Source of the DNA: a virus
DNA: 36,659 nt
Direction: 5' to 3' (one strand)
Virus record (IMG/VR): IMGVR_UViG_3300038701_003630
Coordinates: 1-36,659 of that record
Position 1 is the stretch's first letter. The number at the start of each line of letters is the position of its first letter. The position numbers were made by a program, and so were the translations under genes. The notes below the pieces were generated by a model that saw only the letters and a list, made by a program, of their open reading frames with translations, made no database searches and was not told where the DNA came from. Shown one piece after another: positions 1,945 through 36,659 of this stretch.

Positions 1945-3827
1945 CAGAGCAGCTCCGTATGGTTGATCACGCGATTCCGGAAGGCCGTCGTGATGCCCCC
2001 GGCGACCTGGCGGAACTGGAAGTCGTACGTGTAGGTCCCCGGACCGAGTGTCTCCTCGCGGCGGTAGACCCAGGGCTGGTAGGCCGTGCCAGGCACGAAC
2101 GTGTTGAGCGACGAGAGTCCGCCGACCTCGACACCGTTCTTGCGGGCGCGCACTTGCGAGAACGTCGTCGAAGCGCTGAACAACCTGTAGATGTTTCCGC
2201 TCATCTCGATCACGACTCTCGTGGTCTCCGTGAGCGTAAAGGTGTGGCTCTGGGCGGTAGTCCAGCTGATGTTCGAGGAGTTCGAGACCTCGCCGTCGGT
2301 CTCGGCAGAATCTGAATCGATGACGCCTCGAGTCGCGTTGTCCTCGGGCCTGCCCGCGCCGGACACGCCTGACCATTGGGCTGTCCCTCCGAGGTTCGCG
2401 CCGTCCGCGAGCTGATTCGTGTCCGTCGTGCGATTCGCGTTGTCCTCGGGCCTGCCCGCGCCGGACACGCCTGACCACTGGGCTGTCCCTCCGAGGTTGG
2501 CGCCGTCCGAGAGCTGATTCGTGTTCGTGGTGCGATTCGCGTTGTCCTCGGGCCTGCCCGTACCGGACACGCCCGCCCACTGCGCAGTGCCTCCGAGATT
2601 CGCATCGTCGGCGAGCTGACTCGTGCTGGTGACGCTCTCGGCGAGCTCCTCCTCGCTCATGACCCGCGTCGGCGCGCCCCAGCCGAGGACGAGAGGGTTC
2701 CAGCGCGGCCAGGCGTCGACGAGCACGGGCGCCGAGACCTGCCAGTCGTAGAGCGTCTGGCTCGGGGTCGAGAACTCGAAGATCCGCGCGGACAGCTCGC
2801 CGAGCTCGTCCACCCACCAGGCTGCGCCCACCGACACCGCGACCGTCTCGATCCAGTCCGAGACGCGCACGCCATCGCTGTCGACGTAGAGCTTCACAGG
2901 GTGCGGGACGTCGGCGTCCAACTGCGCGAGGGCGGCCGCATCCACGGTGAGCCCGCCACCGTCCCAGAGCGCGTCGAGGATCCGCTGGATCACCTCACCC
3001 GGGGTCTCGACGTAGCCGCCGTCCGTCACGTCGGCATCGCCCTCGAAGTCGACGCACACGACACCCTTCGGCGTTCGCGCGAGGCGGATGAGTCCCTCCG
3101 CGACGCAGGTCACGTAGGTCCCGTCGAAGGCCGGGGCGCTCAGGTCCGCCGCTTTCAGCGCGGTGAAGGTGGCGTAGTCGCCTGCCGCCTGAAGCGGCAC
3201 GCCCTTGTCGGTGACGCCCTGGCGTCGTGGATCCGCGGCGTCGAAGAGGATCCCGCCGATGCGGCGGCAGTGGACCTGAGCGATCAGCGCGGCCCGGTCG
3301 ATGAACTTGCCCTCGAGGGGCACGTTGAACTGCGGGCCCAGCGCGAAGGGCTTCACTCGATTGGCGAACTCGGCCGAGCCTTCGGCGCCGCCCGTGCCTG
3401 CGTAGCGAGGGAGCTTCAGTGGCACGTCGAGAGCCCCGGAAAGATCTCGCAGCGCCACGGTGATCCGGCCGCGTTCGTCCTGCGCGATCGACTCGGCGCG
3501 GAGCTTCGCGAAGAGCGTGCAGTCGGAGAGATCGGTCGGGATCTCGACGTCGGCCCGGTACACCTCGACGAGGGCGTCGACCCAGGCGAGCCCGAGGAGC
3601 GCGTTGAGCGCGCCGTCCTGGTTCGCGAGCGACAGCGCACCCACGCCGGCGGAAGAGCCCGCACGCCCGAAGCCATCGACGAGCAGTTCGAGCGAGAGGG
3701 TCGGCAGCGTCAGGATTCGCTCGTGCGCGTCAAGGCGCCAGGGCTGCGCGAGTCCCGATGAGAACCGGTGGCTCTGGACCACACCGGCGCTGTCCTGAGG
3801 GCTCATGATCACCAGCCAGCGGTCCAC
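1944..3827 (-). CDS. Tail tip / host-interaction protein with three 34-aa repeats
   Basis: The protein has 627 aa from a GTG two bases past the tape-measure stop. The first ~400 residues are a mixed alpha/beta baseplate- or tip-like region. Residues about 395-496 hold three 34-residue repeats (ANLGGTAQWSGVSGAGRPED-type), a pattern seen in phage tip and host-specificity proteins. The remaining ~130 residues look like a jelly-roll or carbohydrate-binding domain, with alternating hydrophobic strands such as TYTYDFQFRQV. It directly follows the tape measure, where siphophages place tail tip genes. Tip function is inferred from order and repeat type. Confidence 0.75.
   Translation of the reverse strand: MDRWLVIMSPQDSAGVVQSHRFSSGLAQPWRLDAHERILTLPTLSLELLVDGFGRAGSSAGVGALSLANQDGALNALLGLAWVDALVEVYRADVEIPTDLSDCTLFAKLRAESIAQDERGRITVALRDLSGALDVPLKLPRYAGTGGAEGSAEFANRVKPFALGPQFNVPLEGKFIDRAALIAQVHCRRIGGILFDAADPRRQGVTDKGVPLQAAGDYATFTALKAADLSAPAFDGTYVTCVAEGLIRLARTPKGVVCVDFEGDADVTDGGYVETPGEVIQRILDALWDGGGLTVDAAALAQLDADVPHPVKLYVDSDGVRVSDWIETVAVSVGAAWWVDELGELSARIFEFSTPSQTLYDWQVSAPVLVDAWPRWNPLVLGWGAPTRVMSEEELAESVTSTSQLADDANLGGTAQWAGVSGTGRPEDNANRTTNTNQLSDGANLGGTAQWSGVSGAGRPEDNANRTTDTNQLADGANLGGTAQWSGVSGAGRPEDNATRGVIDSDSAETDGEVSNSSNISWTTAQSHTFTLTETTRVVIEMSGNIYRLFSASTTFSQVRARKNGVEVGGLSSLNTFVPGTAYQPWVYRREETLGPGTYTYDFQFRQVAGGITTAFRNRVINHTELL
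2341..2646 (-). repeat. Three 102-bp tandem repeats in tail tip gene
   Basis: Three direct repeats of 102 bp start with tcctcgggcctgcc at 2341, 2443 and 2545. The first two are nearly identical; the third has diverged. Each encodes 34 residues, so copy number can change without frameshift. They are coding repeats with no spacer-repeat structure. Confidence 0.88.
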
Positions 3828-29912: not shown

Positions 29913-30118
29913 GCGGCAGCCCTCCGGTGACGGCCGTTCCAGGCCACGTGTGCGCGCTCACGGAGGCGCTCGCGAGGCGCGTTGCCGTAGCGACCCCGGA
30001 CCCTCGGGCCAGCCGCGCCGCAGGCGCAGGTGACGCGCGCGGAGGTGTCGTCGGCGTCGAACTCCACGGCGAGCGCCGCGCAGCCGCAGAAGGGGCAGTC
30101 CTTCAGTCCCAGGCTCAT
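29909..30118 (-). CDS. Lar-like restriction alleviation zinc ribbon protein
   Basis: The protein has 69 aa from an ATG overlapping the MuB-like stop. It contains CPFC at 8-11, C-x-C at 31-33 (TCACGAAGP) and AWN at 59-61, the order typical of the Lar_restr_allev family (CPFCG ... C..CGA.GP ... AW). Lar of the Rac prophage modulates type I restriction to favour modification of incoming DNA. Most phage members are not tested, so the function is tentative. Confidence 0.75.
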   Translation of the reverse strand: MSLGLKDCPFCGCAALAVEFDADDTSARVTCACGAAGPRVRGRYGNAPRERLRERAHVAWNGRHRRAAA

Positions 30119-31107
30119 GCGTCACCCCCGAGGTCCAGCCAGGCATGGCGCACATGGGCGAGGCCGATCTCGCGCGTGTCCTGCTGCGAGGCGAACATCC
30201 GCGCGAGACGCAGCGTCTGCGTGAGGCCCCGCAGCGCGCCCGGGCGGCGGCCGATGTCCATGCAGAACTTCCGGCAGTCGGGGTCGTTCACGCCCCATGC
30301 GGAGAGCAGCGCGTCGACGTCGGCCGGCTTCGGCTTCGTGAGCCGCACCCGCTTCGCGAGGCGCGAGAACACCTGGGCGTACACGGCGTCCCGAGAGCCG
30401 CCGGTCATCTGCGCGTAGATGCGCTCGTTGCCGGCGAGCGCGAGGCCGATCGACGTCGCGTCGTGGATCTGGCGGATGCAGTCGAGCGAGCGGTGGCAGA
30501 GGTGCTGCGCCTCGTCGACGACGAGCAGGCCGCGCGTGTCGCGCACCCGGTCGTAGATCGACGTCTCCATGCGGGCGTTGTTCGCCGACGGGCGGATGCC
30601 GAGCTCGACGCAGATCCGGCTCAGCAGCGGACCCGGGCGCGCCGTGTTCGGCGTCGCCGTCACGGCCCACACGTTCGGCGCCTTGCTCTGGTAGCGGCGG
30701 ATCGCCGTGGTCTTGCCGACGCCGGCACCGCCGTAGATGACGACGACGGCCGGCGCGATCTGCGCGAACGAGAGCGCGTCGATCGCCGCGTTCGCCGAGG
30801 GCGTCTCGAAGTACTCGGGCGCGTCCGGCAGCGTCGCCTTCAGCTCCGCCGCCGCGATCCGGCGGTCGAGCCAGGCGCGCACCGCGTGCACGATCGGCTC
30901 GCGCTTGCCCGGATACACGCAGTGCAACCACTGGTTGAAGCGCGCGTAACTGAGGCCCAACTCGCCGGCGAGCTTCGCCTGCGAGATCCCGTCCAGCTCC
31001 ATCGCCGCCTTGATCTGCGTGCGGAGCGCCTGCTCCTCGGCACCGCCCGCGTGCTGCGGCCCGGTCACCTCGTCGCTGGTCTGTGCTGCGTTCGCCGTCT
31101 CGGCCAT
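30115..31107 (-). CDS. DNA transposition protein B (MuB-like AAA+ ATPase)
   Basis: The protein has 330 aa; the ATG follows GGAGA with six bases spacing. A helix-turn-helix lies at about residues 41-67 (ISQAKLAGELGLSYARFNQW). The AAA+ core has Walker A GGAGVGKT at 126-133 and Walker B LLVVDEAQ at 194-201. MuB-type ATPases coat target DNA, select the transposition target and activate MuA, and give target immunity. It follows the transposase as in Mu, separated by 88 bp containing a strong hairpin. Confidence 0.93.
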   Translation of the reverse strand: MAETANAAQTSDEVTGPQHAGGAEEQALRTQIKAAMELDGISQAKLAGELGLSYARFNQWLHCVYPGKREPIVHAVRAWLDRRIAAAELKATLPDAPEYFETPSANAAIDALSFAQIAPAVVVIYGGAGVGKTTAIRRYQSKAPNVWAVTATPNTARPGPLLSRICVELGIRPSANNARMETSIYDRVRDTRGLLVVDEAQHLCHRSLDCIRQIHDATSIGLALAGNERIYAQMTGGSRDAVYAQVFSRLAKRVRLTKPKPADVDALLSAWGVNDPDCRKFCMDIGRRPGALRGLTQTLRLARMFASQQDTREIGLAHVRHAWLDLGGDA

Positions 31108-31195: not shown

Positions 31196-33136
31196 CTATG
31201 CCGCCCCATCCCCGAAGTGCGCGCGGCGCACCTCGGCCATCGCCTTGCTGAACGCCTCCTCCGCGTCGAAGTCGTCGTCCTCCACCGGTTGCTGCGGGCC
31301 CTGGAATGCAGGCCGCACCACGTTCGTCTCCGGCTCTTCGCCCTCCGGCGCCGTGGGCATCAGCTCCAGCGCTTCCTCGGGCGTCATGCGCTGCTCGATC
31401 TCGGCGCGCTCCTTCGCGTTCCGTCTCAGTCGCTGGATCTCGCGGCCGTAGCGCTTGCCGCCCTCGACGTCGCCGAAGCCCACGGGCGCGATGCACGTCG
31501 CCGTGCCGATGTAGCGGCCACCCAGCTCGTAGACGTGCACGTCCTCGTGGAGCGCGTCCGCGTCGAAGCGCACGACGACCGTGTGGCCCTGATGCGCGTA
31601 GAGGCAGTCGTCGCTGTAGCGGTTGCGGCCGTTCGGCCCCGTCCCTGCCTTGAGCACGATCGAGCCGTCGCGCTGCACCAGCGCCTGCTCGGCAGCGAGC
31701 AGCCACAGGCGCCGCTGGCTCTCGCTCGCGCGGCGGATCTTCTCGGCGTTGCGCTCGTAGGACTCGGCGAACGCCTCGTCACGGGACAGGCGGCCGCCGC
31801 CGATCTCGGTGCGGGCCTTCTCCAGGGCGTTGATGCGGCGGACGCCGTCGTCCAGCACCTCGATGAACTCCGCCCAGGTCAGGACGCGCTCGCCGTGGTT
31901 GTGCGGCTTCTCCTGCGTGTTCCGGCCGGTGTAGGCGCCGGCCGCCTTCGGGTGCTTGTCGACGTACTCGCCGATGCCGCCCTTCCCGAAGATGCGCTCC
32001 ACCGGCTTCGCCTGGCCGTGGCCCTTCCCGCCGGGGATGCTCGTCCAGTGCACCTGGATGCCGAGCTGCGGCAGGATGCCGAGCGCGTCCCCGTCATGCG
32101 TTCCGAACCGCTGCCGCCCCGGCGCCCGACCCGTCATCGCCTTGTTGGCCGCGGCCCGCGTGTTGTCGATGGTCACGTGGTTCGGAATGCCGTAGCGCTC
32201 CACCACGTGCCCGAGGGCGCGGCGGATCTGGTCGCCGTTCTCGCTCTCGTCGGGCTGGTAGCCGACGATCTTCCGGCTCCGGACGTCCTGCCAGAACCAG
32301 GTCGTGGGCCGCCCGACGTTGCCGCTCGGGAAGCGCACCTGGAGGTTGTGCGTGTAGCCGTCGCCCGAGAGCGCCTCCATTGCGTGCAGCGACTGCACGG
32401 TGCGTTCGAACGGAGGACGCATCTGCTCGAGCAGCGCGCCTTCGCCCTCGCGCTTGAGCTTCTTCACGCGGGGATCGAGGTTCTGCACACGGCGCTGGAA
32501 CGTGCGCTCGCTCGCGACCTCCCAGCCGTGCTCGGCCGCAGCCTCCTTCAGCAGCTGGTAGCAGTGCGGCACGGAGCGCTGCTCCGGCGTGAGATAGAGC
32601 GCGAGGAAGAAGTCCCACGCCTTCGGCGTGATCTCGGCCACCGCGGTGCGCCCGGTCCAGCCGGGTGCCAGCCGAGGGAGCCAGTCGCCCGGGTGCACGC
32701 CCTTCACCGCCGCGCGCCAGCGGTGGATCGTCGCGGCGCTCACGCGGTTCGCCTTGCCGACCTGCTTCACCGCGGCCACCACGCCGGTGCCGTCCGCGAC
32801 GAGCCGCTGAATCGTGTAGAGGATCGCGTAGCGTCGCTCCGCCTCCTCGCGCATGGAGTTCGTCAGCCGCTCGTACCAGGCCCAGAGTTCCTCGCGGTCC
32901 TCGTCCGGCGTCGAGGCCGGGCGCTGCGTCTCGCGCGCTTCGGCCCGCGCCTCCTGGAGGAGTAGCGCGACGCGGGTCTCCTCGGGCAGGGACGCGATCG
33001 AGTACTCCCAGCCTTTGCCCTGGTCGCGATCGCGGCGCTCCCAGCGATCCGAGTGCGCGCGGCGCAGCACCGCACTTGGCGTCTTGGGCATCCCCCGCAG
33101 CCCCGCGAGCTCCGCCGCCGTGAACCACTCCTTCAC
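31196..33136 (-). CDS. Mu-type DDE transposase (MuA-like)
   Basis: The protein has 646 aa. A GTG at 33136 with GGAGG six bases upstream gives the expected N-terminus (VKEWFTAAELAGLRGMPKTP), matching the MuA enhancer-binding domain. Residues about 65-240 are the end-binding helix-turn-helix subdomains. The catalytic core has D259 in LSGDGYTHN, D324 in VTIDNTRAAANK and E380 in GQAKPVERIFG, so the DDE triad is intact. A C-terminal beta-barrel (VVVRFDADALHEDVHVY) and a MuB-contact tail follow. It integrates the phage and replicates it by transposition. Residues 164-238 are duplicated in another gene at 33616-34173. Confidence 0.97.
   Translation of the reverse strand: MKEWFTAAELAGLRGMPKTPSAVLRRAHSDRWERRDRDQGKGWEYSIASLPEETRVALLLQEARAEARETQRPASTPDEDREELWAWYERLTNSMREEAERRYAILYTIQRLVADGTGVVAAVKQVGKANRVSAATIHRWRAAVKGVHPGDWLPRLAPGWTGRTAVAEITPKAWDFFLALYLTPEQRSVPHCYQLLKEAAAEHGWEVASERTFQRRVQNLDPRVKKLKREGEGALLEQMRPPFERTVQSLHAMEALSGDGYTHNLQVRFPSGNVGRPTTWFWQDVRSRKIVGYQPDESENGDQIRRALGHVVERYGIPNHVTIDNTRAAANKAMTGRAPGRQRFGTHDGDALGILPQLGIQVHWTSIPGGKGHGQAKPVERIFGKGGIGEYVDKHPKAAGAYTGRNTQEKPHNHGERVLTWAEFIEVLDDGVRRINALEKARTEIGGGRLSRDEAFAESYERNAEKIRRASESQRRLWLLAAEQALVQRDGSIVLKAGTGPNGRNRYSDDCLYAHQGHTVVVRFDADALHEDVHVYELGGRYIGTATCIAPVGFGDVEGGKRYGREIQRLRRNAKERAEIEQRMTPEEALELMPTAPEGEEPETNVVRPAFQGPQQPVEDDDFDAEEAFSKAMAEVRRAHFGDGAA
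32423..32647 (-). repeat. Transposase end-binding segment (donor copy of duplication)
   Basis: This segment encodes transposase residues 164-238 (TAVAEITPKAWDFFLALY ... ALLEQ). It is closely matched by 33883-34113, about 1.46 kb away, in the same orientation. Confidence 0.9.
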
Positions 33137-33220: not shown

Positions 33221-33469
33221 ATGACGCGAGATACCCAGCTCGAGCTGTTCCGAATTGCACGCGATATCGCCGTCGCCCAGCACAAGCACCTCATGGAAAG
33301 GTCGGCGGAGCGGCGCGTGTTCGACCGCGTTGCCGAGAGGAAGGCGCTCGAGGCTGGAGGCGAGCCCGCACCGACGGTCCAGGAGTGCTTTGTCGAGGCG
33401 TATCGCTTCATGACGTCAGAGCTCGCCGCCGCTGCCGATCCGGATGAAGCTTCCGAGCCGGGCGAGTAG
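33221..33469 (+). CDS. Small rightward protein divergent from transposase, function unknown
   Basis: The protein has 82 aa from an ATG with GGAGGGGA upstream. It is mostly helical (MTRDTQLELFRIARDIAVAQ) with an acidic C-terminus. Codon use with high GC at third positions supports coding. It is opposite to the early operon and its 3' end overlaps the 67-aa leftward gene by 54 bp. Not recognised; a possible accessory gene expressed from the prophage. Confidence 0.62.
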   Translation: MTRDTQLELFRIARDIAVAQHKHLMERSAERRVFDRVAERKALEAGGEPAPTVQECFVEAYRFMTSELAAAADPDEASEPGE

Positions 33470-33619
33470 CTGGAGCGGACCGCCTAGATCGACAGCCGCT
33501 TGAAGCAGCGCGCTGTAGGCGTGGTAGTCGTTCACCGCCCGCTGACGTATGAGCGCCACGATCTCTGCAGACAGCTCGCTGTCCGTGAGGTCACCGCGTT
33601 GCTGCGCGCCGTCGCTCAT
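33416..33619 (-). CDS. Small early protein, function unknown
   Basis: The protein has 67 aa from an ATG overlapping the upstream stop (ATGA). It is helical (TDSELSAEIVALIRQRAVND) with a non-polar Leu/Gly C-terminal half. It would be the original neighbour of the HTH gene at 34170 if the gene between them was acquired between the direct repeats. It overlaps the rightward 82-aa gene tail to tail. Not recognised. Confidence 0.6.
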   Translation of the reverse strand: MSDGAQQRGDLTDSELSAEIVALIRQRAVNDYHAYSALLQAAVDLGGPLQLLARLGSFIRIGSGGEL

Positions 33620-33639
33620 GCCTCTCCTCCCTCGAACAG
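33614..33639. repeat. 26-bp direct repeat, copy 1
   Basis: Identical to 34168-34193. It spans the end of the transposase-fragment gene (its last codons, stop) and the ribosome site and ATG of the next gene. Confidence 0.92.
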
Positions 33640-34173
33640 GTCGGCGAGATAGGCTTTGTGCTCTCGCACAACGGCATCGCTCAGATCTGCAGCCACGTAC
33701 GCAGCTCGCTCCGCGGCCGCGCGGACGCGGTAGGCGTGAATCTCTCGCGGACGCCCGCCCGTCATCTCCACCCACTCGTTCAGCTCGCGCTGCGCCTTGC
33801 GCGCCGCGGCGATCTGCGCCTCGAGTTCCAGCCAGAGCGGGTTGAGGCCCTCCGGCTCAGTCGCCGCGGGGGGCAGTGTCGTCTGCTCGAGCAGCGCGCC
33901 TTTGCCTTCGCCCTCGCGCTTGAGCTTCTTCACGCGGAGGTTGAGGTTCTGCACACGGCGCTCGAACGTGCGCTGGCTCGCAACCTCCCAGCCGTGCTCG
34001 GCGGCGACATCCTTCAGCAGCCGGTAGCAGTGCGGCACGGAGCCCTGCCCCGGCGTGAGATAGAGCGCGAGGAAGAAGTCCCACGCTTCCGGCGTGATCT
34101 CGGCCACCGCGGTGTGCCCCTCTGCCTCGTCCGCGCGTCGAAGCGCACGCACGACCCGTCTGAATCCGCTCAT
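33616..34173 (-). CDS. Stand-alone transposase end-binding-domain paralogue with novel C-terminus
   Basis: The protein has 185 aa from an ATG overlapping the upstream stop (ATGA). Residues 21-97 (TAVAEITPEAWDFFLALY ... ALLEQ) are over 80% identical to residues 164-238 of the transposase here, with a two-residue insertion. This corresponds to the I-gamma part of MuA, which binds the phage end sites. The catalytic core is absent; instead a different helical C-terminus (residues 105-185) ends with LFEGGEA, the same end as the upstream HTH protein. The gene is bounded by identical 26-bp repeats. Frame, start and coupling are intact, so it is probably expressed, perhaps as a competitor or modulator of transposase binding. 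Confidence 0.8.
   Translation of the reverse strand: MSGFRRVVRALRRADEAEGHTAVAEITPEAWDFFLALYLTPGQGSVPHCYRLLKDVAAEHGWEVASQRTFERRVQNLNLRVKKLKREGEGKGALLEQTTLPPAATEPEGLNPLWLELEAQIAAARKAQRELNEWVEMTGGRPREIHAYRVRAAAERAAYVAADLSDAVVREHKAYLADLFEGGEA
33883..34113 (-). repeat. Transposase end-binding segment (duplicated copy)
   Basis: Paralogous to 32423-32647 with a six-base insertion (Lys-Gly) near its end and about ten substitutions. Divergence shows that the duplication is not recent, while the open frame shows selection or youth moderate enough to keep it intact. Confidence 0.9.
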
Positions 34174-34193
34174 GCCTCTCCTCCCTCGAACAG
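34168..34193. repeat. 26-bp direct repeat, copy 2
   Basis: Identical to 33614-33639; it covers the last codons and stop of the HTH gene and the ribosome site/ATG of the transposase-fragment gene. The two copies are 554 bp apart. Confidence 0.92.
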
Positions 34194-36386: not shown

Positions 36387-36659
36387 AGGTTTCTTGAAGG
36401 CCGATCGGCCTCAGCGGGAAACTCTCTTCTCATCTGGCGGCGCGGCTCGATCTGCGCCGCTGGTTCTCAATCCGGGTGTCATGGGCGAATTCGGTCGATC
36501 GGGCTGGAGCCCGCGCCATCCGTGGGCTGTCCCTCATTGGCCGCCGTCTTCTCCGATCTTCCCGGAATTCTCAGAGCATGTGTCCGCACACACTCGCCTC
36601 GCATCTGCCCGGCCATGCGCTGGCGACGGTGCGCGAGCCGATCGGCGTCGTCGCCTGCG
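36361..36659 (+). CDS. Possible partial ORF running off window end
   Basis: From an ATG with GGAGAAGG close upstream, overlapping the 63-aa gene by 26 bp, the frame stays open to the edge for 99 codons (MSPGQRAFEGFLKADRPQRE...). The first 20 residues look protein-like; later Pro/Ser/Arg-rich sequence is less convincing. The phage left end should lie in or beyond this stretch, so an ORF that reads across it into flanking DNA is an alternative. A 7-bp hairpin lies at 36437-36460. Confidence 0.35.
   Translation, partial: MSPGQRAFEGFLKADRPQRETLFSSGGAARSAPLVLNPGVMGEFGRSGWSPRHPWAVPHWPPSSPIFPEFSEHVSAHTRLASARPCAGDGARADRRRRL

Follow-up and report, generated by a model that had tools for sequence, protein, structure and literature searches.

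The DNA analysed here, hereafter the window, comprises one viral record, 36,659 bases long, and the phage that it carries is Mu-like. A gene for a CII-like transcriptional regulator (P0003, 34170..34652, minus strand; phrog_101, E=6e-16), whose homologues precede the transposase gene in related loci, lies upstream of gene A, which encodes a Mu-type transposase (P0002, 31196..33136, minus strand; Pfam DDE_2, E=7e-80). The transposase retains an intact Mu-type core with all three catalytic residues (D260, D325 and E381), and Pfam recognises in it both the DDE core and the Mu C-terminal domain. A MuB-like ATPase is encoded at 30115..31107 (minus strand). Between the CII-like gene and a small gene of 67 aa, P0004 (33416..33619, minus strand), whose homologue in the related locus L006 directly follows the CII-like gene, sits a further gene of 185 aa (33616..34173, minus strand), the subject of this report. 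Just upstream of the transposase gene, an 82-aa gene (33222..33469, plus strand) runs convergent to the early operon; its homologue occupies the same place in L006 (L006:1073-1372, minus strand), and opposite-strand open frames are found at this position in L016, L012 and L014 as well.

The two ends of the window have features of their own. Two left-end genes contain repeated peptide units (~1059-1400 and ~2220-2600, minus strand), which in the list of open reading frames run ADRQAVEQLAQQVxDDRxAVAQDLLATDEDQQQV and NxLxDGANLGGTAQWSGVSGAGRPEDNANRT. The right end (~36560-36659, ..TLASHLPGHALATVREPIGVVAC..) resembles by eye what we take to be a host aldehyde dehydrogenase, so the record probably extends into host DNA past the phage end. 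We found no convincing repeated sites for phage-end binding at either window end, and the left end may be truncated.

The 185-aa gene is a chimera of three parts. An earlier note on this DNA had described it as a transposase subdomain made into a separate gene, and the gene is indeed a real open reading frame with an ATG start, supported by Pfam, PDB relatives and structure prediction. An 18-codon leader (34120..34173, minus strand) precedes a transposase-derived part (33882..34119, minus strand), which is followed by an orphan C-terminal segment (33640..33881, minus strand). The middle part matches the transposase gene at 93% identity over 216 ungapped nucleotides (33904-34119 against 32438-32653), and a gapped alignment gives 216 of 238 identical positions with one in-frame insertion of 6 nt. 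A match of this quality is not to be expected by chance (E=2e-94 when the two sequences are compared with each other). Ahead of the insertion, 11 of 72 aligned residues differ, or about 85% identity, in agreement with the earlier figure of more than 80% identity to transposase residues 164-238.

What was copied is the I-gamma subdomain (HTH_Tnp_Mu_2, PF09039; E=4e-14, 52.9 bits against a cut-off of 20.5), and its best PDB relatives are 2EZH and 4FCY. The copy begins at transposase residue 163, and I-beta, which precedes I-gamma in the transposase, is absent; the protein does not contain the bipartite Mu end-binding module of I-beta, linker and I-gamma. Pfam matched neither a Mu C-terminal domain nor a DDE core in it, the latter as the note had stated. 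In an I-gamma tree built from 92 representatives plus added sequences, the copy is sister to the window's own transposase (support 0.999, branch distance 0.21), and on these sequence grounds that transposase is its source.

The flanking parts of the chimera are of less certain descent. The tail, about 85 codons long, scores 0.29 bit per codon in its annotated frame, the best of the six frames; for comparison, P0004 scores 0.23 and the large genes 0.5-0.7 bit per codon. Searches for relatives of the tail in Pfam, PHROGs, phage records, viral contigs and related loci returned none, the best phmmer matches in the related loci being at chance level (E about 0.7-1), and about 240 bp of the insert match nothing else in the window. 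The leader is not coding-like (-0.07 bit per codon). Within it, 26-29 nt resemble transposase nt 1559-1585 in a different frame. Among control windows, 0 of 2000 scored as high against the transposase gene, and 7% of random windows did so against the whole window; a derivation of the leader from the transposase in another frame is suggestive only. No close relative of the whole gene was found in the viral and bacterial contigs searched, and an exact 32-bp probe from the copied part matched no second record.

Structure prediction suggests that the I-gamma fold is kept in the 185-aa protein. In the AlphaFold model, the I-gamma part has pLDDT values of 85-94 over residues 31-80, and Foldseek aligns it with 2EZH at a TM-score of 0.85 (target-length normalised), an rmsd of 1.7 and E=5.9e-3. 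The tail is modelled at lower confidence (pLDDT 57-79) as two long helices, residues 112-138 and 144-181. A dimer role for the tail is a guess from this low-confidence model.

Two copies of a 27-bp repeat, 100% identical, bracket the gene in a unit of 554 bp (33613..33639 and 34167..34193). The earlier note had their identity and placement right and their length, given as 26 bp, slightly short; the junction that it described is present in both, since each copy holds the last codons, LFEGGEA, a GGAGG Shine-Dalgarno sequence and an ATGA stop/start overlap. The copy at 34167..34193 forms the 3' end of the CII-like gene, and the one at 33613..33639 spans the end of the 185-aa gene and the start of P0004. 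Most CII-like homologues in related loci have PELxLF(x)GG, or something close to it, as their C-terminus, so the upstream copy is the native one and the downstream copy the duplicate. What is repeated is therefore the conserved 3' terminus of the CII-like gene and not a dedicated recombination site.

Recombination between the two copies would delete 554 bp without damage to either neighbour. In L006, the CII-like gene is followed after 2 nt by the P0004 homologue and the 185-aa gene is absent. L006 also shares the convergent small gene beyond the P0004 homologue, and this is the empty site. Removal of the gene with preservation of its neighbours, as the earlier note had envisaged, is supported by this arrangement.

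The insertion lies at a hot spot for variable genes, the junction of the CII-like and transposase genes. These two genes lie within 60 bp of each other in 51 of 63 pairs from related loci, near-identical prophages from one strain being counted separately, and in the other 12 the junction holds more than 60 bp of extra DNA. The larger gaps contain unrelated small open frames. Like an early-operon variable gene (moron), the 185-aa gene is present in the window while the same spot is empty in L006. L014 has an additional gene (L014:2347-2706) between its CII-like gene and A. That gene, too, finishes with GGEA, together with GGAGG and an ATGAGC overlap, and genes inserted at this junction may therefore regularly bring along or restore the coupling signal.

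An assembly artefact, in which repeat and copy were wrongly joined in a single environmental or draft contig, would fit the fact that no second record holding the 185-aa gene was found. However, the copy is 7% diverged and about 240 bp are unmatched in the window, so the repeats alone cannot have made the insert. Frames and overlaps are also intact at both joints, and we consider such an artefact very improbable.

The divergence of the copy is indistinguishable from neutral drift. Over 78 codons, copy and parent differ by 12 nonsynonymous and 5 synonymous changes, a dN/dS of 0.74. When the parent was mutated at random, a mean of 11.9 amino-acid changes was expected, against 11 observed before the insertion, and the frame stayed open in 53% of trials (P(no stop)=0.53). 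These counts therefore establish neither purifying selection nor decay. By comparison with 139 other transposases, the copy alone seems to have changed at E186, R188, A200 and D222, whereas for K173E and Q215E it seems to be the parent that changed. At the nearly invariant position 186, E in 136 of the 139, the copy has G; it also carries R188G. The RTF.RR residues of the recognition helix are retained.

Such a pattern is what a neutral remnant would display: an illegitimate-recombination by-product in a tolerant spot, functionless, its frame open by chance and through high G+C, and due to be lost between the repeats. The drift-like substitutions, the loss of E186 and the single known occurrence all suit this reading, as do the leader, not coding-like and perhaps transposase scrap in another frame, and the tendency of G+C-rich sequence to give long open frames on several strands. 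It accounts less well for the retained recognition-helix residues and predicted fold, the coding character of the tail in the right frame, the good translational signals on both sides, and the conservation of free I-gamma proteins in other phages. We regard a remnant as a serious possibility that falls short of being probable, nearly as likely as the nascent interfering gene proposed below.

The earlier note named no described transposable phage with such a protein, but free I-gamma proteins are not confined to this phage. When 163 related loci were scanned with an I-gamma profile, one further intact stand-alone gene came to light, which encodes 92 aa and lies between A and B in a Mu-like prophage of Lonepinella koalarum (L087:8006-8284). 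A Pfam search of 140 Pasteurellaceae genomes found a second, encoding 68 aa and again between A and B, in G003 (L179:4219-4425); it also occurs in viral records L193 and L194. The two proteins are 40% identical, their reading frames both stay open, and they are sister in the tree (support 0.97) on long branches. Since this pair is sister to each other and the window copy is sister to its own transposase, free I-gamma arose at least twice.

The Pasteurellaceae proteins carry E and W at the transposases' basic recognition-helix positions (EVKEW and EMLEW, not R-rich) and so may work differently. The predicted structure for L087 (mean pLDDT 68) has a recognisable I-gamma fold, and its best match is 2EZH (E=0.04). 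No other intact free I-gamma was found in ~930 further genomes from three groups or in 369 genomes spread over the class, too thinly to carry weight; the samples overlap somewhat. A tblastn search of 50,697 phage records gave one place per record among the matches listed. Short I-gamma matches in L052, L090, L139, L142 and L180-L183 seem to be fragments of transposases that were interrupted or have decayed, and we do not count them as free proteins. Open-access literature yielded nothing on free I-gamma proteins, which is weak evidence of absence. Free I-gamma genes are thus rare but real, and the Pasteurellaceae genes provide the stronger evidence that a free I-gamma can be worth keeping.

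How might such a protein act? In Mu, I-beta and I-gamma together mediate specific binding to the ends, and R1-bound I-gamma makes extensive protein-protein contacts in the transpososome (PMC3362531). The reading that we prefer, while placing it a little below an even chance, is that the window gene is a nascent chimera in a Mu-like hot spot whose product, if active, hinders transpososome assembly. Part of the transposase gene, I-gamma only, has been copied and reads in frame with the orphan segment that codes for the helical tail; the duplicated CII-like 3' end provides each side of the unit with a ribosome-binding site and a stop/start overlap. Translated by coupling within the early operon, the gene would yield a small protein that keeps the I-gamma fold intact and adds a helical hairpin, through which two copies may pair. 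On its own, a free I-gamma that lacks I-beta would probably bind the ends weakly; pairing through the tail could strengthen end binding, or the protein could act through transposase contacts. With neither I-beta nor a catalytic core, its likeliest effect, if any, would be mild interference with the phage's own transpososome, by taking I-gamma half-sites or I-gamma's protein contacts.

Several observations weigh against interference: the copy bears no sign of selection, it carries E186G and R188G, it is missing I-beta, we found no second phage with this gene, and the Pasteurellaceae proteins no longer have the basic recognition helix. The gene may be too young for selection to have tested. The idea of a working end-binding protein is not supported by a copy with no selection shown, E186G, no I-beta and a tail without relatives in the collections searched. 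The earlier note's interpretation is partly supported overall, and any function of the gene is putative.

The same note had suggested that a free domain could help immunity; in a superinfection immunity or exclusion role, a prophage-made free domain would block the ends of incoming related phages. The domain does belong to the Mu end-binding module (PMC3362531), but, from the gene order, the 185-aa gene follows the CII-like gene in the early operon on the transposase side and would probably be silent in a lysogen, and I-beta is again missing. We think this role improbable.

Returning to the nascent chimera, a broader proposal is that Mu-like phages repeatedly free I-gamma as a small transpososome regulator. 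The window would hold a nascent, still DNA-binding-like form with a pairing tail, and Pasteurellaceae phages an old, acidic-helix form acting by protein contact, such a regulator having been invented at least twice and at different positions. We offer this tentatively, as rather unlikely. If free I-gamma proteins do regulate transposition, they would constitute a layer of control absent from the Mu model and assembled from pieces of the transposase itself. In that case the window would record how such a gene is born, parent, copy and empty site all being visible, and the early steps of domain capture would become testable. For asking whether a free end-binding subdomain functions, the Pasteurellaceae genes, between A and B and at 40% identity, are the more tractable.

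Comparison with known systems sets the window gene apart in several respects. By sequence and predicted fold its domain is the same as the I-gamma subdomain of MuA (PF09039; PDB 2EZH, 2EZI and 4FCY); unlike MuA, it would be a separate small protein that lacks I-beta, the catalytic core and the MuB-binding end and has a new helical tail. The Pasteurellaceae I-gamma genes likewise stand alone beside the transposase gene of a Mu-like phage. However, they lie between A and B, whereas the window gene is upstream of A, and they are old, common to two diverged phages, without a helical tail and with an acidic recognition helix.

The Mu repressor c sets a precedent for controlling transposition with a stand-alone phage protein that employs a transposase domain: its DNA-binding part and subdomain I-alpha of MuA are related. 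The repressor chain 1G4D appeared weakly (E=0.07) in the PDB search with the transposase. The repressor is ancient and uses I-alpha and the operator/enhancer, whereas the window gene is a recent copy that would use I-gamma and the ends. Tn5 Inh, IS1 InsA and IS911 OrfA are truncated or partial transposases that inhibit their parent. By analogy, the window gene too may present a non-catalytic part of a transposase as its own product and possible competitor. Those inhibitors are made from the transposase gene itself, through another start or without a frameshift; the window gene, in contrast, is a copied fragment joined to foreign sequence.
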